A stretch of DNA of 32,036 bases, taken from positions 1 through 32,036 of the forward strand of contig JALSRZ010000174.1 of the NCBI GenBank assembly GCA_026984515.1, written 5' to 3'. How positions within the stretch are numbered: position 1 is the stretch's first letter; each line of letters starts with the position of its first letter. The stretch is from Thiohalobacter sp. GTDB lineage: Bacteria > Pseudomonadota > Gammaproteobacteria > DSM-19610. Below, piece by piece: positions 19 through 11,205 of this stretch. The position numbers were made by a program, and so were the translations under genes. The notes under the pieces are model-generated. The model saw only the letters and a program-made list of their open reading frames with translations, did not search any database and had not been told where the DNA came from.

Positions 19-2484
19 CTAGAAATCAGCCCGGTATCCCAGGCTGATAAACCAGGCTGAAGAGTCCTGTGTCTGGTCAGTGAAATCCTGTGTCGACCAC
101 TCACCGCCACCCTCGAGTTCAAAACGATAACGCTTGCGCCACCGGTAATCGATGCGTAGCGAGGGCGCGGCCGTCCACTGCGTCGAATTATTATTGCTGT
201 TGTCACGGTAATCGAGCCGGAACTTGGGGTTGATGCGCCAGACCGTCTGTATCGGATAGCGTGTATCCAGGGTCAGGGAACTGATATTGCTGGTACTGGT
301 ATCGGAATAACGCAAACCCAGCACGCTGATGTCACCGTTTTTAACAAGGTTGCTGCCAATCAGTTGCAGGTTGTAGAAATACTCGTTACCGGTACCAGGC
401 ACAGCGTCTACACCGCCGGAACTGTTGGTTCCGGACAGCCTGGAGGCCGTCACGTCACCACTGACCTGGAACTTGTCGTTGAACGGGTGTGAAGCACCCA
501 GCGTCAGTGTGGTGACATCGGCCGTACGGTCTTCCGCCAGTTGCCGGATCTGGTCCTTGCTGAAGCTGTTCAGCAGATCGTCGATCGAGGTCAGGGTCTG
601 TCCCTGCAGGGCATTGGTCGTCGTCAGGATCGGGCTGTTGCGGTAATCCACCGATGCATTGATTGTGGTGCGGTCCGGCAGGGTCCAGGTGCCCAGCAGA
701 ATCAGCGTGTTCAGCGAATCGAAGGAGATGTCATAATCGACAAAGCTGAGCAGGGAGCGAACCGGGTCGAAATAACGCGCCTCGCCGCCAATGGCACGGC
801 GGTCAAGGATGCCATTGTTCTGCTGCTCGATGAAAAAGGCCTCGAAATCCCAGGCATTGGCGAAGGTACCCAGGTCCGCGCTGACCCCGTAGAGGTAACG
901 GTCGGTCTTCAGTGAATCGCGGGTGGAGAATACGGGATAACCCGCCACGCCGTTGAGCGTCAGCCAGTCCGTGAGCTGGTACCCCAGCAGCAAACCGTCA
1001 AAGCGGCCCAGCACACCACCGGTATTACGGGATTGCCGGCCCAGCCTGGCAGAGACGCGGTACTTCTTCTGGCTGGCATCGACATACAGGCTGCTGACAC
1101 TGGTGTTGCTGCCCGGACCGTCACTGAGAAAATCGTGCTGGTAGGAGCCGGTAAATCTTGACTGGAAATCATACTGGTCGGAACGCTTGCGTGCCGTGAT
1201 ATCCAGGTCATTGGTAATTGATGACTGCGTGACGAGGTCACCACCGGCATCCGTACGACTCTCGTCACGCCGGTAAAACTGCGAAAAGCCGCCGTAGACC
1301 TGCCACGGGTTGGAACGCGTGCTCGTCTTTCCCTTGCTGCCCAGCTTGTTGGGCTGCTGTCGGGCAGTGGTCAAGCCGGCCAGCCTCTGCCTGACACGAG
1401 CGGCACCTTCGGTACCGGGGTAGAGTTCCAGGTAGCGCTGGTACTCGCGCACGGCGTGAGCGTACTGGCGCTTGCGTTCACGCGCCAGCCCCAGGTACTC
1501 CAGCGCATCGCGACTGTACTGGTTATCCGGGTAACGCAGCACCTTGGTATAAAGCTGGATAGCATGACTGACCTTGCCCTCCGCGATTGCTTTACGCGCT
1601 TGCTCCATGATGCCGAATATTTTGTCATTTTTCCGGGCTGACGGGCCGGGGAGCGGCCTGCGCACAGGTACACTGAGTGGTGTAGTCAGTATATCGGTTT
1701 GCTGCAGGGCGGCGTTGATCTCTTTGGAACTGGCGTACGCGACCCATGCGCCGGGATATAGCTTCAGCAGCTGCTTGCGAAACGCCTCGGCCTGTTTGCG
1801 GGTATCGAAGAAACCGAGGCGCAGGCGATGCCATACACGGCCCTGGATAGGGAAACGGGTGGTATACGTGACGTATTTATCCACCCCGGGTATAGCCTTG
1901 AGTGGCGGCTGGTTTTTCCCTTCCAGAAAAGATTCAAGGTTGATGACGTAGTGCTGCGTCAGCGTAAACGGATGTCGACTGCCCTTGCCGGATGAAGTTT
2001 TCGGTACATTTTTCTCGGCCCGGTTTTCATCTGCAAGCGGATTATTGGAAGTGACCACTCTGACCAGGATATGTCGCCGGTCCGCGCCCGGGTACAGCGT
2101 GTAGGAGACCTTGCGGGAAAACCGAAGTGTCAGCACCCCGCGCTCGGCACTGACGGTCTCGTAACGTGTATCGATCAGGGGAACGTAGCGGCTTGAAGAG
2201 GTAGTCACAGTCTGTTGATCACTGGCTTCCACCTGCTTCGAGAACAGATTGTTGCTGATCGTCCTGAACTGGATCTGCAACTCATCACCGGCACGCTCCG
2301 GGGCATGGTTGATGTACTGCAGGGGGATGGTGAAATCAATTCGTATCGTGGCCGGGTTCTCGTGGTCGTCGATGGTGACGGTGTCGATGACACCGGCGGC
2401 CTGCGCCGTGGCCGAGCAGCACAACATGGCTGCCAGGGCTGTCCGGAAAACCAGTTGCAAACATCCTGTAAAGTTGATTTTCAT
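19..2484 (-). CDS. Outer-membrane beta-barrel with N-terminal beta domain, SPOR-like and TPR domains (porin of the cytochrome conduit)
   Basis: Predicted outer-membrane barrel of 821 residues that would hold a multiheme cytochrome across the outer membrane. Residues 1-29 are a Sec signal peptide ending near AQA. Residues about 31-146 form a beta domain that is repeated as the stand-alone protein just upstream. Residues about 175-258 look like a SPOR (peptidoglycan-binding) domain, with alternating strands and the stretch RLGFFDTRKQAEAFRKQLL. Residues about 285-375 contain two to three TPR helices. From about 392 onward the sequence alternates polar and apolar residues in barrel fashion and ends in ...YRADF, the terminal aromatic residue expected of BAM substrates. 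The ATG at 2484 is preferred over the longer start at 2550 because it opens directly into the signal peptide and leaves 22 bases after the upstream stop. The role in electron transfer is inferred from the operon; an unrelated TPR/barrel export protein is the main alternative. Confidence 0.8.
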   Translation of the reverse strand: MKINFTGCLQLVFRTALAAMLCCSATAQAAGVIDTVTIDDHENPATIRIDFTIPLQYINHAPERAGDELQIQFRTISNNLFSKQVEASDQQTVTTSSSRYVPLIDTRYETVSAERGVLTLRFSRKVSYTLYPGADRRHILVRVVTSNNPLADENRAEKNVPKTSSGKGSRHPFTLTQHYVINLESFLEGKNQPPLKAIPGVDKYVTYTTRFPIQGRVWHRLRLGFFDTRKQAEAFRKQLLKLYPGAWVAYASSKEINAALQQTDILTTPLSVPVRRPLPGPSARKNDKIFGIMEQARKAIAEGKVSHAIQLYTKVLRYPDNQYSRDALEYLGLARERKRQYAHAVREYQRYLELYPGTEGAARVRQRLAGLTTARQQPNKLGSKGKTSTRSNPWQVYGGFSQFYRRDESRTDAGGDLVTQSSITNDLDITARKRSDQYDFQSRFTGSYQHDFLSDGPGSNTSVSSLYVDASQKKYRVSARLGRQSRNTGGVLGRFDGLLLGYQLTDWLTLNGVAGYPVFSTRDSLKTDRYLYGVSADLGTFANAWDFEAFFIEQQNNGILDRRAIGGEARYFDPVRSLLSFVDYDISFDSLNTLILLGTWTLPDRTTINASVDYRNSPILTTTNALQGQTLTSIDDLLNSFSKDQIRQLAEDRTADVTTLTLGASHPFNDKFQVSGDVTASRLSGTNSSGGVDAVPGTGNEYFYNLQLIGSNLVKNGDISVLGLRYSDTSTSNISSLTLDTRYPIQTVWRINPKFRLDYRDNSNNNSTQWTAAPSLRIDYRWRKRYRFELEGGGEWSTQDFTDQTQDSSAWFISLGYRADF

Positions 2485-2506
2485 ATACCGGTTGGCGTGT
2501 GCTTGT

Positions 2507-2953
2507 CTACAATAATTCCTGGATAACGACACTGAGGCTGCGATAATCATTGCCCGGGATTACCTGGTAACGGACCGGCCGGGTAAAGCGGACAGTGACA
2601 TAAGGACCTCCGGCGATGTCCCCTTCATAGAGCACTTCGTCTATCGCTGCTTTTTCTGCATCCGGGGGAACCATGCCTTCGCGCCGGAACACCGCGCCCA
2701 GGTCCGATGCCGGGACGCGCACCGGGGCGACACGGATACGCAGTTCTTCGCCGCTTTCCTGCGGGAAATGTGACTGATAGCGAAACGGGAACGTCAGTTT
2801 CACTTCCAGAATTACATCATGATGAACCGTATTGAGCAGGGCACTTTCTATAATCCTGTCCCTGGCGGGCGGCCCGGAAATCGCAAACCCTGCAGCAAAC
2901 AGGATGAGCGCTGCCAGGAACAGCACCAGGTGTCGTTTGGTCTTGTGACTCAT
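2507..2953 (-). CDS. Small membrane-anchored or exported protein sharing the porin's N-terminal beta domain
   Basis: A 148-residue protein with a hydrophobic N-terminus (residues about 8-27) that could be a signal peptide or an uncleaved anchor; no lipobox cysteine is visible. The rest matches the first folded domain of the downstream barrel protein: LTFPFRY here versus FTIPLQY there, GEELRIRV versus GDELQIQF, and VRFTRPVRYQVIPG versus LRFSRKVSYTLYPG. The two therefore share one domain, either by duplication or by splitting off from the porin. It has AGGGA seven bases before the ATG and lies between the large cytochrome and the porin gene, so an accessory or assembly role in the conduit is likely. 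The function is not known to me, and no heme motif is present. Confidence 0.75.
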   Translation of the reverse strand: MSHKTKRHLVLFLAALILFAAGFAISGPPARDRIIESALLNTVHHDVILEVKLTFPFRYQSHFPQESGEELRIRVAPVRVPASDLGAVFRREGMVPPDAEKAAIDEVLYEGDIAGGPYVTVRFTRPVRYQVIPGNDYRSLSVVIQELL

Positions 2954-2997
2954 TCAGCGGTCCCTGTCGTGTTTTCCATGCCGGACATGCCGGGTTC

Positions 2998-4884
2998 CTA
3001 GTCGAATCCGCCATCGCTGACACGGTGTTCACCGCTACGACGTTTCTTGATGGTGGTCAGGGAACTGTCCGTGTAGGTGTGACAACTACCGGAACAGTCT
3101 CGCAGTTCGCTGACCGTGTACGATTTCTTCGGGTTCTCCACTTTCTTGTGTTCGCCCGCCTTGTACTTGTTGGCATGACAACCTGCACAGTCCGGTTTGT
3201 ACGAGGGTGACGACCAGGTGACCGTCTGGGAGTTGGAGCGGTGGCAGGCGGTACAGGACAGGTTGCCGCGATGGTCGCCCGGGTACGCTCCCGAGTTATG
3301 ACGGAAACTGATTGGCGTCCAGCGAGTATTGTTGTGACAGCTGTCGCACTGCAGGGAAGTTACGAAATGATTCCCCGGCTTGCCAGTGGCCTGTGTACCA
3401 TTATGACAGCTGGAACAGGAACCGGTCACGCTGTTGTGGTCGAAGCTTGCCGGTGTCCAGGAGCGGGTCGAATGACAGGTGTCGCACTGGGCGCTGGTCT
3501 GGATATGGGTGGCGGTTTTACCGGTGGCAGTCGTGCCATTGTGGCACTGTGTGCAACTGCCCGGCGCAACGCTATTATGGTCAAACACCGCCGGGGTCCA
3601 GCCATTGGTGGTATGACAATCGTCACAGGTATTGCCGGAACTGATATGGTTCGATGTTTTGCCGGTCGCGGTCGACCCGTTGTGACAGGAGAAACAGGTG
3701 CCGATCACGTCGGCGTGATCCACCCGGATCACCGGCGTCCAGCCTGTATTGCGGTGACAATCCTCGCACAGGGTATTGGTCTGGATGTGAGTCGGGTTCT
3801 TGCCTTTGGCGGTACTGCCGTTGTGGCAGCTCGCGCAGCTTCCACTGACACTGCTATGGTCGAATACCGCGCCCGACCAGCTGCTGGTGCTGTGGCAGTC
3901 GTCACAGGTATTGCCGGAACTGATATGGTTCGATGTTTTGCCGGTCGCGGTCGACCCGTTGTGACAGGAGAAACAGGTGCCGATCACGTCGGCGTGATCC
4001 ACCCGGATTACCGGTGACCAGGACGTGCTGCGGTGGCAGTCCTCACACAGCATGGAGGTCTGGATGTGGGTCGGGTTCTTGCCGGTGGCGGTCGAACCAT
4101 TGTGACAACTTGAACAGCTGCCGGTGACACTGCTGTGGTCGAATACCGCACCCGACCAGCTGTTGGTACTGTGGCAGTCATCACAGGTGTTGCCACTGTT
4201 GATGTGACTGGCGGTTTTTCCCGTGGCAACCGTGCCATTGTGACAGGAGAAGCAGGTACCGGTCACCGACGCGTGATCCACCCGGCTCACGGGCGACCAG
4301 GCAGAAGTGCGATGGCAATCCTCGCACTGGTTGCCACTTTGTATATGGCGCGCACCCTTGCCGGTGGCAATGCTGCCGTTATGGCAGCTGGAGCAGTTGC
4401 CCGTGACATCACTGTGGTCAAAACGCGCACCCTGCCAGGTACCACCGGCGGTATGGCAATCCTCGCAGTTATTGCCACTGCGGATATGGGATGGCGTTTT
4501 GCCGGTCGCAACCTGGCCGTTATGACAGGAAGAACAGCTCCCAACCACGGAGGAATGATCAAATCGTGTCAACTGTTTCCACGAAAAACTGGAGTGGCAA
4601 TCTTCGCAGTTGCCGCTGGTGGAAACATGGTTCGGCGGCAGGCGTTCGCCACCCAGCCGGGACGTCGTCGCATGACAGGATGCGCAACGCCTGGGGGTGC
4701 CTTTGAAAATACCGCGCGTGTGGCAGCTGCCACACTCTGCGTCCTGGTGCGCACCGTCGAGCGGGAACCCCGTGGAGAAATGGTCAAAACCCTCTTTACC
4801 GGCGGCATTGGCTGCAAGAGGCAGCAGCAGGCCGGCCAGCACCGTCCATACCAGGAATATTCGACTAATGTTTGATCTGTACAT
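2998..4884 (-). CDS. Giant multiheme cytochrome c (23 CxxCH plus one CxxxCH)
   Basis: A secreted protein of 628 residues with a Sec signal peptide (residues 1 to about 27, cleavage near AANA) and 23 CxxCH motifs, plus a final CSGSCH close to the C-terminus, so up to 24 c-type hemes, about one per 26 residues. Most modules read CxDCHxxxxW...FDHxxVxGxCxxCHNGxxATGKxxxH. The internal His of FDH/VDH and of the following THI/NHI segments are good distal ligands. The centre is made of nearly identical 93-residue, four-heme units. The C-terminus is lysine- and arginine-rich. The ATG at 4884 is preferred over the long upstream extension because it starts the signal peptide, has GAGGA nine bases ahead, and overlaps the previous gene by only 20 bases. 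Expected role: electron carrier at or beyond the outer membrane, served by the porin downstream. Surface location is inferred; a periplasmic location cannot be excluded. Confidence 0.88.
   Translation of the reverse strand: MYRSNISRIFLVWTVLAGLLLPLAANAAGKEGFDHFSTGFPLDGAHQDAECGSCHTRGIFKGTPRRCASCHATTSRLGGERLPPNHVSTSGNCEDCHSSFSWKQLTRFDHSSVVGSCSSCHNGQVATGKTPSHIRSGNNCEDCHTAGGTWQGARFDHSDVTGNCSSCHNGSIATGKGARHIQSGNQCEDCHRTSAWSPVSRVDHASVTGTCFSCHNGTVATGKTASHINSGNTCDDCHSTNSWSGAVFDHSSVTGSCSSCHNGSTATGKNPTHIQTSMLCEDCHRSTSWSPVIRVDHADVIGTCFSCHNGSTATGKTSNHISSGNTCDDCHSTSSWSGAVFDHSSVSGSCASCHNGSTAKGKNPTHIQTNTLCEDCHRNTGWTPVIRVDHADVIGTCFSCHNGSTATGKTSNHISSGNTCDDCHTTNGWTPAVFDHNSVAPGSCTQCHNGTTATGKTATHIQTSAQCDTCHSTRSWTPASFDHNSVTGSCSSCHNGTQATGKPGNHFVTSLQCDSCHNNTRWTPISFRHNSGAYPGDHRGNLSCTACHRSNSQTVTWSSPSYKPDCAGCHANKYKAGEHKKVENPKKSYTVSELRDCSGSCHTYTDSSLTTIKKRRSGEHRVSDGGFD
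3620..4008. repeat. 110-bp perfect direct repeat inside the 24-heme cytochrome gene
   Basis: Positions 3620-3729 and 3899-4008 are identical over 110 bases at a spacing of exactly 279 bases, which is 93 codons. The unit encodes four hemes (CDDCH, CASCH/CSSCH, CEDCH, CFSCH). The next unit at the same spacing (around 4178-4287) is homologous but clearly diverged. This is coding repetition produced by tandem duplication or gene conversion of a four-heme module. Confidence 0.9.
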
Positions 4885-6436
4885 CACGGAAGTCCTCGCT
4901 GTTATGGCAGCGTGAGCAGTCAGAGCCAAAATGGCCCTGGTGTATATCATCCTGACGGTGACAGGCGTTACATTGCTGTGACTGTTTGAGCGGGCCTTTG
5001 ACCGGTCGCTTGTGGCAGTCGTTGCAACGCAGCTCGGCATGTGCGCCCAGCAGTTCGTAATCAGTCTGTTTGTTGTGATCAAAAATCCACACGGACCAGG
5101 CATTGGGGTTGTGACATTCCTGGCATTCGGTACCCAGTGTGCCCTTGTGTTCATCGTCATTCTCATGACAGCTGATGCACTCCAGGTCCGTATCTCTGAA
5201 AGCGGCGGACAGGTGGCATTCCTCGCAGGGGGCGGTGGCATGTAATCCAAGCAGCGGGAAACGAGTCAGATCATGGTCGAATACGATGCCTTCGTCCCAG
5301 CCGCTCGCCTGGTGGCAACGCTGGCACTGCTTGCCCTCCTGCCCGTTATGAACATCATCCGTACGATGGCAGCTGACGCATTCAACAGACAGTTCGTCCT
5401 TGTACATGTCACCACGATGGCAGGCATTGCACAGCAGTTTTTCGTGCTTGCCCTGCAAGGGAAAATCGGTATTGCGCTGGTGATCAAAATGGCTTTTTTT
5501 CCACTGCGTTGCGTTGTGGCAGGTCTGGCATTTCTTCCCGTAGCGGCCGTGGTGAGCATCGTCTCCACGGTGGCAGGACACACAGGTGGAAGACGGCTTT
5601 TTGTCCTTCACAGGGTCCTTGTGGCAGGCCTCGCAACGGACCTTTGCATGACGACCCCTGAGGCGAAAATCCGTATCCCTGTCGTGATCGAATTCGGATT
5701 CGGACCACTTGCTTTCGTTATGACATTCAGCGCACTTTGGACCATTGGCGCCGTTATGCACATCGTCCAGGGCATGGCAAGCCTGGCAACTGCTGGTGGT
5801 GTCCTTGTACTTCTCATTGATGTGACAACTGCTGCAGGCCGTGCTGCGGTGGGCACCGTGCAGGGGAAAGTCGGTCTTGTCATGGTCATAGTCGAATTTT
5901 TTCCAGCTTTTTACGGTATGGCAGCTCTGGCACTCGTTACCCAGGTTGCCATGATGGGGGTCCTGCTTGCCGTGACAGCGGTTGCAGGTGGATGCAGCTT
6001 CGGAAAACTTCTTGCCCTGTTTGTGGCAGGCGCTGCAGGCCACGTTCATATGTGCACCTTCCAGGTGAAAATCGGTGTGCCGGTGGTCAAATGCCAGCGG
6101 ATCCAGCCGGACGATGTCCGCATCCCGGCCGAGGTGTTCGCTGTGACAGCTCTTGCAGCTGGTAGTGGCAATATTTTCAATGCGGCCGTGGTACCCGGAT
6201 GCCTTCCTGATATCCCTGTCGATGTCCTCGTGACAGTCCAGGCACAACTGTGACTGTGTCTTTTTGCTGAAGCGGGAATGGCATTTACTGCACTCGCTTT
6301 CCAGTTTCGCGTGCCCTTGTATGACTTCGCCGGGCATCAGCAACGTCTCGATATCCAGTGCCATAACCGGATCCTGTGCTGCCATCATTGCTGTGCCTGC
6401 CATTGCCATCATGAATGCCCGTATCAGTCTGTCCAT
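4865..6436 (-). CDS. Periplasmic 21-heme cytochrome c
   Basis: A 523-residue exported protein with a signal peptide (residues 1 to about 26, ...MAAQDPVMA) and 21 CxxCH motifs, about one heme per 25 residues. The repeating plan is three hemes per roughly 55 residues: CxxCHxxxxWxxxxFDHDxxTDFxLxGxH, then CxxCH, then CxxCHxxDDxHxG. The conserved FDH and GxH histidines are likely sixth ligands, giving bis-His hemes. The repeat style differs from that of the neighbouring 24-heme protein, so the two are not simple duplicates. The gene follows the b-type membrane protein by 19 bases and overlaps the next gene by 20, fitting one transcript. The probable role is to carry electrons across the periplasm between the inner-membrane b-hemes and the outer-membrane porin/cytochrome. 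No clear Shine-Dalgarno sequence precedes the ATG. Confidence 0.88.
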   Translation of the reverse strand: MDRLIRAFMMAMAGTAMMAAQDPVMALDIETLLMPGEVIQGHAKLESECSKCHSRFSKKTQSQLCLDCHEDIDRDIRKASGYHGRIENIATTSCKSCHSEHLGRDADIVRLDPLAFDHRHTDFHLEGAHMNVACSACHKQGKKFSEAASTCNRCHGKQDPHHGNLGNECQSCHTVKSWKKFDYDHDKTDFPLHGAHRSTACSSCHINEKYKDTTSSCQACHALDDVHNGANGPKCAECHNESKWSESEFDHDRDTDFRLRGRHAKVRCEACHKDPVKDKKPSSTCVSCHRGDDAHHGRYGKKCQTCHNATQWKKSHFDHQRNTDFPLQGKHEKLLCNACHRGDMYKDELSVECVSCHRTDDVHNGQEGKQCQRCHQASGWDEGIVFDHDLTRFPLLGLHATAPCEECHLSAAFRDTDLECISCHENDDEHKGTLGTECQECHNPNAWSVWIFDHNKQTDYELLGAHAELRCNDCHKRPVKGPLKQSQQCNACHRQDDIHQGHFGSDCSRCHNSEDFRDVQIKH

Positions 6437-6455
6437 GTATCTGTTTCACTGCCCG

Positions 6456-7349
6456 CTAGTACATATGTACTGCGACCACATGCACACTGCCGGAAATGAT
6501 CAGCATCAGGAACAGCGGGAAATGCAGCAGATGCCAAAGCGAAAACAAGCGATTGTAAAACTGGAATTCCGCAATCTTGCGGATGCTTTCCAGGCGTGCT
6601 CCCACGTGGCGCAGTAGCAGACGCCGATCGCGGGAGGTCAGGGAACCGGGCACCTTCAACCATAGCGACAGGTACAGGAGCCAGGTCCGCGTACCCAGTG
6701 ATACCAGCCGGAACACACTGGTAATAAACCCGGCCGGTTTCTGCCGTGCCTGCTTCTCGAAGGTTTCAATACGCCGCGCCGCGACCGGCCAGTCGGACAG
6801 GGCGCTCTGCAGCGCTCCCTGGAGCAGGGCAGAGTGGCGGACCAGCTCATCCAGTGTGGCCTGGCGGCCGTACAGGCCGTGGTGGATCCGCGTATAGAAG
6901 TAACGGCCCACCAGGCCACTGCTGGCGACAACCAGCATACAGAACAGGGCCACATTGCTGTTCAGGGAGCCCAGTTGAAAACCGCTGTGGAACAGAATGC
7001 AGACCGGCCCCAGCACGCCGAACAGCATGTGCGTACGGAACCAGATTTTTACCGGCCCCAGGTGGCGCATGATCCGCAGGTGCTTGCGTAACGGGTAGAG
7101 CAACAGCAACAGCATCATGCTCCCGCCAATTATCCCCAGCGCATAGCCCATGCCGGATTCAGCGGTCAGTGGTTGCTCCAGCCGGTTGTTCCAGCCCAGG
7201 TACACCACGTACAACACCAGCAGATACATCACCAGCAGCAGGAAGCCGCGGGATCTGGGCCGGTAGAGATCGATCAGTGCCGTTCTGTCCGGTTTTCGCT
7301 CGGGAGCTACCGGTATGGATTCAATGTTTGCTTCAGCCGCGCCGGACAT
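6456..7349 (-). CDS. Inner-membrane di-heme b-type cytochrome-like protein
   Basis: A 297-residue membrane protein with helices at about 36-52, 67-85, 105-122, 130-148 and 270-292, and a soluble segment (about 150-260) between the last two. Two histidine pairs, His107/His121 and His276/His290, are each 14 residues apart within a helix. This is the spacing used to ligate two stacked b-hemes between a pair of helices, as in ferric-reductase-like and other di-heme membrane cytochromes. As first gene of the cytochrome operon it is the natural link between the quinone pool, or the cytoplasmic side, and the 21-heme protein. Heme binding is inferred from spacing only. The segment 150-260 is rich in Arg and Leu and I do not recognise it. 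Confidence 0.7.
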   Translation of the reverse strand: MSGAAEANIESIPVAPERKPDRTALIDLYRPRSRGFLLLVMYLLVLYVVYLGWNNRLEQPLTAESGMGYALGIIGGSMMLLLLLYPLRKHLRIMRHLGPVKIWFRTHMLFGVLGPVCILFHSGFQLGSLNSNVALFCMLVVASSGLVGRYFYTRIHHGLYGRQATLDELVRHSALLQGALQSALSDWPVAARRIETFEKQARQKPAGFITSVFRLVSLGTRTWLLYLSLWLKVPGSLTSRDRRLLLRHVGARLESIRKIAEFQFYNRLFSLWHLLHFPLFLMLIISGSVHVVAVHMY

Positions 7350-7380
7350 AATGGTCGTTTGCCTTTCTGGTTCTTTGTAG

Positions 7381-7409
7381 ATGCTTCCGCTCTCTAGCGG
7401 TCAGAGCAT
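7381..7409 (-). promoter_or_regulatory. Compound hairpin in the leader of the cytochrome operon
   Basis: An outer stem ATGCT/AGCAT (7381-7385 with 7405-7409) encloses an inner stem CCGCT/AGCGG (7387-7391 with 7396-7400) and a 4-base loop. It lies about 32 bases before the ATG of the first cytochrome gene. It has no T-tract, so it is not a simple terminator. It may be an mRNA leader structure or an operator; its function is unknown. Confidence 0.4.
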
Positions 7410-7803
7410 ATTCTGGCTTTACCGCGCTGCCCCGGTCTGTGTGCCGTTTCACATAAATTGGGACTTAAAGACCAAATTGCAAAATGGATGCCAACCTGCC
7501 CGGGGATGCCTGCTACCGCTGAATTTCCGCTCAAGTGCCTGTTTTACGGTAAATACCGGAATCCGGGCACAGGATTTACCATCGAAAATGGCGCTTTTCC
7601 TGTCGGGGTTAAACGACAGATAGCTGTCCGTGTTAAATCCCGGGATCTGGTATCGAAGCAGACGAAAATACGAACCGGCCTGTCGCCGACCAGCGACAGA
7701 CTGCCCGGGACAGGTGCAGAGACAAGGCTGCACTGCAGCCAACCAGGACCTGCTTGCACATGGTACGCCTCCTGCTTGTAAAACCACCGGACTGTGCGCG
7801 GCT

Positions 7804-7823
7804 TCACACTATGAAATATGTGA
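7804..7823. promoter_or_regulatory. Inverted repeat TCACA-N10-TGTGA upstream of the oxidoreductase
   Basis: Two 5-bp arms, TCACA and TGTGA, are separated by 10 AT-rich bases about 85 bases ahead of the ATG at 7908. The arms are in the reverse order to a CRP/FNR box (TGTGA-N6-TCACA), so it is not a standard CRP site. It could be an operator for a dimeric regulator, but this is a weak call. Confidence 0.25.
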
Positions 7824-7907
7824 CACGCTGGTCTTCAGGTATTCGGGTACCGGCGCCGATGAAACTTCCGTCCGGCTTAACTGGCAACAACACTTGACTG
7901 ACCCACT

Positions 7908-9218
7908 ATGAAAGTAACGCTCTCACTGTTCCTGTACCTGCTTCCCATGCTGCTGATTTTCAGCTGGTATATGAATCGCAAACAGCAACAGCACCGGAAC
8001 AGCCTGGGAACCCTGGAAGAAAACCGCAAATCCGGTTTGCTCGAACCATCATCGCTGCACCCCCTGATCGATGTCACCCGCTGTATGGGTTGCGGTTCCT
8101 GCGTCAGTGCCTGCCCGGAGGGGGATGTGCTGGGTGTGATCGACGGCAAGGCACACCTGGTCAACCCTACCCACTGTATTGGTCACAGTGCCTGCAAGAC
8201 CGCCTGCCCGTTTGACGCTATTACGCTGGTATTCGGAACTGAAAACCGGGGCATGGACATTCCCGTTATCAAGCCCAACTTTGAAACTACGATGGACGGT
8301 ATCTTCATCGCCGGTGAACTGGGTGGCATGGGCCTGATACGCAATGCCGTGGAGCAGGGGCGTCAGGCGCTGGAGCACATCTGCAAACACCCGGGGGTCG
8401 GGGCTTCCGGCGACGACCGGCTGGACCTGCTGATCGTCGGTGCCGGCCCGGCCGGATTCACTGCCTCACTCGGCGCCATACAGCACGGGCTGAAGTCGGT
8501 CACGATCGAGCAGGAAACGCTCGGCGGGACCGTCAGCCACTTTCCGCGCGGCAAGCTGGTCATGACCGCGCCGGTAAAACTGCCAGTAGTGGGCAAGATG
8601 CCGTTCACCGAGACCACCAAGGAGACATTGCTGGAATTCTGGGAAAACGTGGAGAAGAAAACCGGGTTGAAAATCCGTTACCAGGAACGCCTGGAAGAAG
8701 TAGTCGCTGAAAACGGCGGCTACCAGGTAACCACCTCCAAAGGGAGTTACCGTACCCGCACCCTGTTGCTGGCCATCGGCCGTCGTGGCACACCCCGCAA
8801 GCTCGGCGTACCGGGAGAATCCTTGCCCAAGGTGGTCTACCGGCTCATCGATGCGGAACAGTACCAGGGGCAACAGGTGCTGGTGGTCGGTGGCGGCGAC
8901 AGCGCCCTGGAGGCCGCCACCAGTATTGCCGGGCAACCGGGCACCGACGTTACGATTTCCTACCGCTCCGAGGCATTCTCGCGCGCCAGGGAAAAAAACC
9001 GCCAGAAGATTGAGCAGGCTGAACAGGATGGTCGTCTTCGCGTGCTGTTCAAATCCAACGTGATCGAGATCAGCGACCGACAGGTGGTCCTGGAGCAGGA
9101 AGGCAACACCATCACCCTGGACAACGACGCCGTTATCATTTCTGCTGGCGGCATCTTGCCCACACCGTTCCTGAAGAAGATCGGCGTCCAGGTGGAGACC
9201 AGACATGGGACCGCCTGA
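7908..9218 (+). CDS. Membrane-tethered ferredoxin-domain FAD/NAD(P) oxidoreductase
   Basis: A 436-residue protein. Residues 3-21 form one membrane anchor, and the positive residues after it predict a cytoplasmic body. Residues 59-69 hold a classical CxxCxxCxxxCP [4Fe-4S] site. The second site is Cys90-His93-Cys96-Cys100, with His where Cys is usual. A segment with GELGGMGLIRNAVEQG follows. A thioredoxin-reductase-like module comes next, with an FAD Rossmann motif (GAGPAG, residues 178-183) and an NAD(P) motif (GGGDSALEAA). It lacks the redox-active CxxC of thioredoxin reductase, so electrons probably pass between NAD(P)H, FAD and the iron-sulfur clusters, then to a membrane partner. The adjacent divergent cytochrome operon offers such a partner in the b-type protein, but this is inference. 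The final 14 bases overlap the next gene. Confidence 0.82.
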   Translation: MKVTLSLFLYLLPMLLIFSWYMNRKQQQHRNSLGTLEENRKSGLLEPSSLHPLIDVTRCMGCGSCVSACPEGDVLGVIDGKAHLVNPTHCIGHSACKTACPFDAITLVFGTENRGMDIPVIKPNFETTMDGIFIAGELGGMGLIRNAVEQGRQALEHICKHPGVGASGDDRLDLLIVGAGPAGFTASLGAIQHGLKSVTIEQETLGGTVSHFPRGKLVMTAPVKLPVVGKMPFTETTKETLLEFWENVEKKTGLKIRYQERLEEVVAENGGYQVTTSKGSYRTRTLLLAIGRRGTPRKLGVPGESLPKVVYRLIDAEQYQGQQVLVVGGGDSALEAATSIAGQPGTDVTISYRSEAFSRAREKNRQKIEQAEQDGRLRVLFKSNVIEISDRQVVLEQEGNTITLDNDAVIISAGGILPTPFLKKIGVQVETRHGTA

Positions 9219-11205
9219 CTGGCGCAATGGCTGGCGCTGCCTGTTGCTGTGCACAAGCCTGCTGTTCACGGCACCGGCGCCTGCCGACGACTACAGTGAT
9301 GCACAGCTTGCCGTCCGTACACGCGACTATGCGCATGCCTACACGCTTTTGCTGAAACTGGCGCGCGCCGGTCACGCCGACGCGCAGTACCAGCTGGCTG
9401 CCATGTACCGTTCGGGACGTGGCACCGGAAAGGACCATGACAAAGCCGCCTTCTGGTACCGCAAGGCGGCTGAACAGGGACATGTGAAGGCACAGTACAA
9501 CCTGGGGGTGCTGTACGAAAACGGCTGGGGCGTAGAACAGGATGAAGCGCAGGCCGTGCAGTGGTACCGGAAGGCAGCTGCACAGGGACACAAAAAGGCG
9601 GAAGAAAAACTCGACAGCAGATCACGAACAGCGCGACTACCTGCGGCAGAAAACAGCGCGGCTGTCGATCACAAAAACCTGCACCACGCAGCACTTAAAG
9701 GAGATAAACGCGCGGTACGGCGCATCCTGGAGCAGGGCGTCAACGTGAATACACGCGACCGCTACCAGGTCACTGCCCTGATGATCGCCGCTGAACAGGG
9801 GCACGCGGAGCTGGTCAGGCTGCTGCTGAGCGCTGGCGCCGATATCAATGCAAGGGACCGGGATGGTGAAACCGCACTGCTGAAAGCAGCCGCGGCGGGC
9901 CAGGTCTCCTGTGCAGGCAAGTTGTTACAGCAGGGCGCACACATCAACCAGGCGGACAAGCTGGGTAATACGGCTTTGATCTTGGCGGTGCGCGCCAATC
10001 ACACAGCGGTCGTGGACCTGCTGTTAAAAGCGCATGCCGCACCGAATCACGCCAACCGCAAAGGCGACACAGCACTGGATATAGCCGAGCGTAACGGTTA
10101 CAGGGCAAGCGCCAAACGCCTTCGTCAGGCCGGTGCCCGACGCACCGCCAGGCCGGCCGTTAAAAAAAGCAATGCCCAACGCGTACAACAGGCAGCACGG
10201 GCGCGCGGTAAAAACGATGTGCCGCTGATCGTTGAAGCCGCCTGGCGAGGTCAGCGTGATGCGGTTCGCACCCTGTTGTCGCGTGGCACGGATATCGAGA
10301 CCCGGGATGCAGAAGGCTATACCGCACTGACACGAGCAGCCTGGAACGGACACGAAGCCGTGGTACAGGACCTGATTGCCGCAGGTGCCAATGTCAATGC
10401 CGGCAGCCAGGAAGGTGCGACACCGTTGTTGCTGGCAGCCAAAAACGGTCATGACCGGGTGGTGCAGCAGTTATTGATTGCCGGCGCCAGAGACCGGCCG
10501 GATGAGCAGGGCAACACCGCCCTTGGCAGCGCCATTCAGCAGGGGCACAGCCACCTTGTCAAACTGTTGCTGGACCGCGGCGGCAACATCAAAACCGGCA
10601 GCAATAACGGCACCAACCCGCTGATTGCAGCCACCAGGAACCAGGATGCACCCACTGTCACGGTCCTGGTCAAACACGGTGCCTGCCTGGACTGCAGTGA
10701 TGCCAGCGGCAGAACCGCACTATGGTATGCAGCCGAGCAGGGTAGCAACCGCCTGACCCGGCTGTTGCTCGGTGCGGCGGGGAAACGCGCCACTGCACTT
10801 GTACGCCAGCCTGACAAGGACGGCTACACCTCCCTGCATCGTGCCGCACTGAACGGCCACGAAGAAGTGGTCAGCTTACTGCTGAAATACGGTGCCGATG
10901 TGCATGCCCGGGCAGCCGGTGGCAACACAGCACTGTTACTGGCGGCACGACAGGGACACCGCAAGTCCGTCGTGCGGTTGCTGCGAGCCGGTGCCGGGGT
11001 CGATATCAAAAACGCCCGTGGCAACACGGCACTGATGCTGGCCGCGGGTAACGGTCACACCGGCGTAGTAAAAGTACTGCTTGAGCACGACGCCAATCCC
11101 GCACTGCGCAATCAACGCCGGGAGCAGGCGGTCGATATGGCTGGCCAGGGTAAGCACACGGAGATTGTCAGCCTGTTAAAGGCATCCGCTCCCTCCTTCT
11201 GGTAG
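9205..11205 (+). CDS. Exported Sel1-repeat / ankyrin-repeat protein
   Basis: A 666-residue protein with a signal peptide (residues 1 to about 27, ending APA), so probably periplasmic. Two Sel1 repeats (about 57-92 and 93-128, with QYNLGVLYENGWGV and WYRKAAAQGH) are followed by about 15 ankyrin repeats in two blocks (about 155-317 and 346-660), with repeated TALxxAAxxGHxxVVxxLLxxGA. The basic linker between them (about 318-345) is probably flexible. The start is well placed: AGGTGGAG lies about seven bases ahead and the ATG overlaps the end of the oxidoreductase gene, suggesting translational coupling. Both repeat types bind proteins, so it may scaffold the neighbouring electron-transfer proteins, but no partner is shown by the sequence. 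Confidence 0.85.
   Translation: MGPPDWRNGWRCLLLCTSLLFTAPAPADDYSDAQLAVRTRDYAHAYTLLLKLARAGHADAQYQLAAMYRSGRGTGKDHDKAAFWYRKAAEQGHVKAQYNLGVLYENGWGVEQDEAQAVQWYRKAAAQGHKKAEEKLDSRSRTARLPAAENSAAVDHKNLHHAALKGDKRAVRRILEQGVNVNTRDRYQVTALMIAAEQGHAELVRLLLSAGADINARDRDGETALLKAAAAGQVSCAGKLLQQGAHINQADKLGNTALILAVRANHTAVVDLLLKAHAAPNHANRKGDTALDIAERNGYRASAKRLRQAGARRTARPAVKKSNAQRVQQAARARGKNDVPLIVEAAWRGQRDAVRTLLSRGTDIETRDAEGYTALTRAAWNGHEAVVQDLIAAGANVNAGSQEGATPLLLAAKNGHDRVVQQLLIAGARDRPDEQGNTALGSAIQQGHSHLVKLLLDRGGNIKTGSNNGTNPLIAATRNQDAPTVTVLVKHGACLDCSDASGRTALWYAAEQGSNRLTRLLLGAAGKRATALVRQPDKDGYTSLHRAALNGHEEVVSLLLKYGADVHARAAGGNTALLLAARQGHRKSVVRLLRAGAGVDIKNARGNTALMLAAGNGHTGVVKVLLEHDANPALRNQRREQAVDMAGQGKHTEIVSLLKASAPSFW

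Follow-up and report, generated by a model that had tools for sequence, protein, structure and literature searches.

A PCC3-type porin-cytochrome cluster in a Thiogranum/Thiohalobacter-like gammaproteobacterium, and the Fe-S/FAD oxidoreductase encoded beside it

The window analyzed here is a 32,036-nt contig (JALSRZ010000174.1, assembly GCA_026984515.1, labeled Thiohalobacter sp.), at one end of which lies a set of genes for an inner-membrane protein, two giant multiheme cytochromes, a small exported protein, and a porin. By published features this set is a PCC3 cluster, the founding Sideroxydans and Leptothrix proteins having been compared by description only. Together with two genes read in the opposite direction, it probably encodes an electron conduit across the whole cell envelope, of at least seven genes, in which NAD(P)H, FAD, Fe-S clusters, heme b, and proteins with 21 and then 24 hemes would lead in that order to the outside. 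An earlier note on this DNA had proposed a five-gene porin/giant-cytochrome conduit, referring to work on MtrCAB/PioAB and PCC3-type clusters. The PCC3 type holds, with all the PCC3 features looked for being present and the gene order conserved in dozens of relatives' genomes, and all five genes are real; but the two divergent genes, for a flavoprotein and an ankyrin-repeat protein, also belong to the locus and had been missed.

The conduit genes and their relation to PCC3

PCC3 clusters are characterized by a porin, two giant cytochromes, one extracellular and the other periplasmic, and a protein of about 300 aa with five transmembrane helices, an SGXXG motif, and two WX3HX13H motifs (He et al., 2017, PMC5566968). 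Here the corresponding genes all lie in one cluster on the minus strand: that for the conserved inner-membrane protein (IMP; 6456..7349, 297 aa), a 21-heme periplasmic cytochrome (4865..6436, 523 aa), a second giant cytochrome (2998..4884), a small exported protein (2507..2953, 148 aa), and an outer-membrane porin (19..2484, 821 aa). From the IMP gene to that for the porin they are spaced by 19, -20, 44, and 22 bp, the negative value being the overlap of the second cytochrome gene with the first, as expected from the earlier description of a single-strand set with gaps under 50 bases or overlaps. The 750-aa open reading frame assigned mechanically to the second cytochrome starts too early: the ATG at 4884 gives 628 aa with a clear signal peptide. 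The porin gene start at 2484 yields a signal peptide directly.

The IMP has five hydropathy peaks, corresponding to five predicted transmembrane helices, and the two histidine pairs remarked on previously prove to be WX3HX13H motifs (W103-x3-H107-x13-H121 and W272-x3-H276-x13-H290); SGLVG is found at 144. Both WX3HX13H motifs and SGXXG are kept in all 58 of the related IMPs (58/58). No Pfam or NCBIfam family matched the protein. Its AlphaFold model is helical (pLDDT 79), and a VIA fold search aligned it with cytochrome b561 (Z 9.2, rmsd 4.5 Å over 142 residues), a level also reached by unrelated helical bundles. The histidine spacing is compatible with a bis-heme helical fold of the FRD/NOX or cytochrome b kind, and the IMP is probably a bis-heme b electron carrier.

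The 523-aa cytochrome contains 21 CxxCH motifs, and the second 23 CxxCH and one CxxxCH, which agrees with the motifs counted before in two exported proteins and, for c-type motifs, with the proposed maximum of 45 hemes (21+24); residue-shuffled versions of both have a mean of 0.29 CxxCH and never more than 3 (2000 shuffles). The 21-heme protein consists of seven three-heme cytochrome c7-like units, with a period of ~67 aa and a spacing of about 17/18/33 in its regular part, and matches Pfam Cytochrome_C7 in nine stretches (E 2.4e-24); a sequence search for solved homologues found none at E 0.001. The 24-heme protein has a heme every 23/24 residues and also matches Cytochrome_C7 (E 6.7e-37). 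Non-motif histidines outnumber hemes in both (29 in the 21-heme and 25 in the 24-heme protein), so bis-His ligation is possible in both. The larger protein carries a Sec signal peptide and no lipobox, and by analogy with other PCC3 clusters would be extracellular. In heme content the two resemble the published PCC3 cytochromes: both are repetitive, with few residues per heme (26.2 in the 24-heme and 24.9 in the 21-heme protein, against about 25), and their counts of 24 and 21 compare with published medians of 34 and 21, the periplasmic number being identical.

The two cytochromes differ in how far their heme number is constrained. In 50 complete relatives the periplasmic protein has 21 hemes in 42 cases, 24 in 6, and 18 in 2, always in whole three-heme units, while the outer cytochrome has from 11 to 70 (median 25; 37 complete relatives), and one that is cut by the end of its stretch already has 83 motifs. 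These counts agree with those reported for the Gallionellaceae (21, 24, or 27 periplasmic hemes vs. 10-35 outer ones; PMC10734462), in which connection it was also proposed as possible that the periplasmic PCC3 cytochrome spans the periplasm (PMC10734462). The simplest reading would be a fixed periplasmic span and a free outer reach, which suggests the periplasmic cytochrome as a ruler for the periplasm. Three relatives (loci L111, L120, and L131) have two giant outer cytochromes per cluster, with 24 + 70, 24 + 42, and 24 + 34 hemes.

The porin consists of a signal peptide, a beta domain, a SPOR domain (Pfam, E 2e-5), TPR helices, and a C-terminal barrel, so ordered that a periplasmic part of ~390 residues (SPOR, TPR) precedes the barrel. 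In the AlphaFold model (pLDDT 77.6) residues 395-821 form about 22 strands, as counted from the DSSP string, and end in Phe. Foldseek matches the model to solved outer-membrane barrels and porins (best E 1.6e-10), and VIA aligns it with the TonB-dependent receptor barrels PirA, Cir, and BtuB (360-380 residues at 4.3-4.7 Å). The prediction of a beta-barrel in this 821-residue protein, on which the earlier note had staked its proposal, is thus borne out, with about 22 strands where up to 42 transmembrane regions have been quoted for others. The 148-aa exported protein is related to the porin's N-terminal domain (26% identity, E 8e-12); since it is recognized in only a minority of loci, it is regarded as accessory.

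The locus shares its working principle, trans-envelope electron flow through cytochromes and an outer-membrane barrel, with MtrCAB, MtoAB, and PioAB. It has more than twice as many hemes as these, in keeping with the earlier remark that its cytochromes are larger than those of MtrCAB, and belongs to none of the families concerned. The porin protein has no Pfam match to the MtrB/PioB family at E up to 0.1; and the cytochromes remain far short of the cut-offs, with 101.6 bits against 192.2 for the MtrA/DmsE decaheme family (TIGR03508) and 18.9 bits against 209.3 for OmcA/MtrC. A search of the host genome for Mtr-family decahemes found none above the cut-off. Membership in the MtrCAB/MtoAB group was therefore rejected, the decaheme, porin, and extracellular-cytochrome tests all having failed.

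The divergent flavoprotein and ankyrin-repeat protein

On the other side of a 558-bp intergenic region (7350..7907), plus-strand genes encode a membrane-anchored Fe-S/FAD oxidoreductase (7908..9218, 436 aa; hereafter the flavoprotein) and a Sel1 and ankyrin-repeat protein (9205..11205, 666 aa), the second overlapping the first by 14 bp. From this layout the intergenic region is presumed to be a shared promoter region; a scan for consensus promoters found none inside 7350-7907, and 4 overall, with 4.5 expected by chance.

The flavoprotein is a near-constant companion of the IMP. Among 369 genomes drawn from the class, the IMP was present in 41 (roughly one in nine), the flavoprotein in 44, and both in 40; that is, the flavoprotein is found in 40 of the 41 IMP carriers, vs. 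4 of the 328 other genomes (Fisher p 8e-48). Two of these four are contig-end fragments, one comes from a genome of 72% completeness, and the last is a paralogue of 31% identity. In a phylum-wide draw all six IMP carriers (6/6) have it, the two other matches being paralogues (31-39%), and the five genomes of the class with two IMPs also carry two flavoproteins. Among 51 related loci, the flavoprotein gene is divergent from that for the IMP in 45 and the ankyrin gene in 40. In several genomes, including G104 (100% complete, in 20 contigs), IMP and flavoprotein lie on different contigs; linkage alone therefore does not explain the pairing.

As to its architecture, an N-terminal transmembrane helix is followed by a ferredoxin-like domain with two cluster motifs (C59/C62/C65/C69 and C90/H93/C96/C100) and by a TrxR/YpdA-like FAD and NAD(P) domain. 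Basic residues come after the single helix, so the catalytic part is likely to be cytoplasmic. The second cluster motif, CIGH(G/S)AC-x3-C (C-x2-H-x2-C-x3-C), is found in 47 of 47 aligned sequences, with a histidine replacing the usual second cysteine; as far as sequence can indicate, this would be a His-ligated [4Fe-4S] cluster. In the first cluster motif the second cysteine is Ser or Thr in 5 of the 47. The FAD and NAD(P) domain is shared with TrxR-like ferredoxin-NADP reductases and with YpdA/Bdr (PDB 7a7b, E 1.2e-26; 3ab1, E 2e-13). Unlike in those proteins, it is fused behind a transmembrane helix and a 2x[4Fe-4S] ferredoxin-like domain, and it lacks a conserved redox cysteine: the alignment of 47 sequences contains no conserved cysteine outside the Fe-S motifs, and so none in this domain.

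The ankyrin-repeat protein (Pfam Ank_2, E 1.8e-108; Sel1, E 5.8e-23) is exported and probably periplasmic; a role as an assembly or scaffold factor is possible.

PCC3 clusters have been described with four genes (PMC5566968, PMC10734462, PMC12442390, PMC8788666), to which the Fe-S/FAD oxidoreductase, the ankyrin-repeat protein, and the small fifth gene are added here. The main text of He et al. (2017; PMC5566968) makes no mention of FAD, 4Fe-4S, or ankyrin, and ankyrin goes unmentioned in the PCC3 literature examined, supplements and subscription papers aside. The core of the locus is thus a further member of PCC3, with a flavoprotein partner that is absent from the accessible descriptions of the class, priority for which is not proven.

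A second locus in the host genome, on another contig (C142; L017:1464-9903), lends support to the view that flavoproteins and membrane proteins of these kinds go together. Its run of four minus-strand genes encodes a caspase-like/Sel1 coiled-coil protein and then, in a row, a cyclic-nucleotide-binding-like protein with FAD, NAD(P), and multi-[4Fe-4S] features, a membrane protein with the WX3HX13H motif, and a decaheme cytochrome that is FHA-like; these domain names were read off the sequence rather than obtained by a family search. This locus and PCC4 or other multiheme cytochrome-IMP clusters (PMC5566968) share with the conduit an HX13H IMP whose neighbors are a multiheme cytochrome and a cytoplasmic redox protein, although PCC4 IMPs are stated to have no significant overall homology to those of PCC3 (PMC5566968). 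It differs from the conduit in having no barrel homologue nearby, and in its longer flavoprotein with all-Cys cluster motifs. Possibly it is a redox-sensing relative of the conduit's inner half.

Host genome and other cytochrome loci

The host is a Thiogranum/Thiohalobacter-like gammaproteobacterium: the closest named relatives (53-72% identity) are metagenome-assembled genomes labeled Thiogranum, Thiohalobacter, or Gammaproteobacteria. Its genome contains dsrA, above the cut-off for that family, and RuBisCO. These families fit a sulfur-oxidizing autotroph, which the host therefore probably is. Within the order the cluster is patchily distributed, with matches at E 1e-3 or better in 8 of 20 genomes, 7 of them clear, and a plasmid search with the IMP as query gave a single match (24% identity). 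An apparent loss of the conduit from a genome of the same genus (G008) was an artefact, the match running into scaffold Ns (L015:7430-10881); the giant repetitive cytochromes probably break assemblies.

Two other contigs of the host genome carry multiheme genes. On one (C164; L149:1-6883), a second giant cytochrome, truncated where the contig ends, has at least 33 heme motifs; after it come another barrel protein of SPOR/TPR-like kind (733 aa) and a large Ig/cadherin-like repeat protein. Past the contig break, the operon of the window may go on with this cytochrome/porin pair. On the other (C45; L151:3125-8207), a 1258-aa frame with 10 heme motifs lies beside a 443-aa frame with five, and the searches made revealed no relation to the conduit. 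Within the window, long open frames of 246-326 aa run antisense to both cytochromes (3241-6253); they are probably shadow frames of repetitive coding sequence rather than genes.

Electron path, direction, and alternatives

In the path proposed here, electrons would be exchanged in the cytoplasm between NAD(P)H and the FAD of the flavoprotein, and would cross its two Fe-S clusters, of which the second probably has a His ligand, before reaching two b hemes of the IMP. These would pass them to the 21-heme protein, spanning the periplasm at near-fixed length, and from there through the porin to the 24-heme protein, which would reach outward a variable distance and give electrons to, or take them from, a partner outside the cell. 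In the periplasm, the assembly may be held in place by the ankyrin-repeat protein and by the porin's SPOR/TPR part. Electrons flowing outward would go downhill in redox potential as well as in membrane potential, and this direction is therefore slightly favored: by analogy with NOX or ferric reductases, electrons from NAD(P)H would be disposed of on an outside acceptor.

Several points weigh against this path. The direction is argued from thermodynamics only, and the true inner partner may be quinone and not NAD(P)H, as in the original PCC3 model. Foldseek gives the IMP model no significant match among PDB folds (best E 0.31; none at E 0.001 or better), and the Fisher p treats genomes as independent although they share ancestry. 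We know of no biochemistry for any PCC3; the function of PCC3 has been called untested (PMC12442390).

That original model, in which an extracellular donor, for example Fe(II), supplies electrons that pass inward and through the IMP to the quinone pool, with the flavoprotein an auxiliary, seems unlikely here, if the least so of the alternatives. It was proposed with the first description of the class (PMC5566968), and known Fe(II) oxidizers are among PCC3 hosts; in Sideroxydans CL21 expression of both PCC3 copies exceeds the mean, and the copy-2 IMP gene rises when cells can oxidize iron (PMC12442390). However, a quinone-only route leaves the near-obligate co-occurrence of a FAD/Fe-S oxidoreductase with the IMP unexplained. 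In Sideroxydans ES-1 expression of both PCC3 clusters is lowered on Fe(II) (PMC8788666), and proteomics on magnetite did not detect the extracellular cytochrome of one of them (PMC12016527), so that the published Sideroxydans expression data mostly speak against iron oxidation. The host, with dsrA and RuBisCO and no Mtr-family decaheme over the cut-off, does not favor it either. An iron-specific function was rejected, with no support in locus or host, and the iron part of the earlier note's inference, which named iron or another solid or high-mass substrate, is not supported.

A doubtful alternative is that the conduit serves not mineral respiration but the direct exchange of electrons with partner cells or with a conductive matrix, the variable outer cytochrome being tuned for reach. 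This would suit the 11 to 70 span of outer heme number and the second cytochrome/porin pair, of at least 33 hemes, in the same genome. There is, however, no partner or cell-surface evidence, and minerals or humics fit the data equally well. It is very improbable that the cytochromes serve to store electrons in the envelope, as capacitors, without crossing the outer membrane: their high heme density in low-complexity repeats and the missing lipobox of the outer one would be compatible with storage, but the barrel gene is conserved, on the same strand and in the same order as in other PCC3 clusters.

For PCC3 as a class, the NAD(P)H-linked path suggests, tentatively, a NOX-like trans-envelope reductase that is not primarily a quinone-linked conduit for iron oxidation. 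Such a reductase would comprise an obligate membrane-anchored flavoprotein of ferredoxin/FNR-like type, with a probable His-ligated [4Fe-4S] cluster, a 21-heme ruler of fixed length, and an outer cytochrome of variable reach. A cytoplasmic redox partner found nearly one-to-one with the IMP is a candidate for the missing link between PCC3 and metabolism, and provides a handle on the direction of electron flow.

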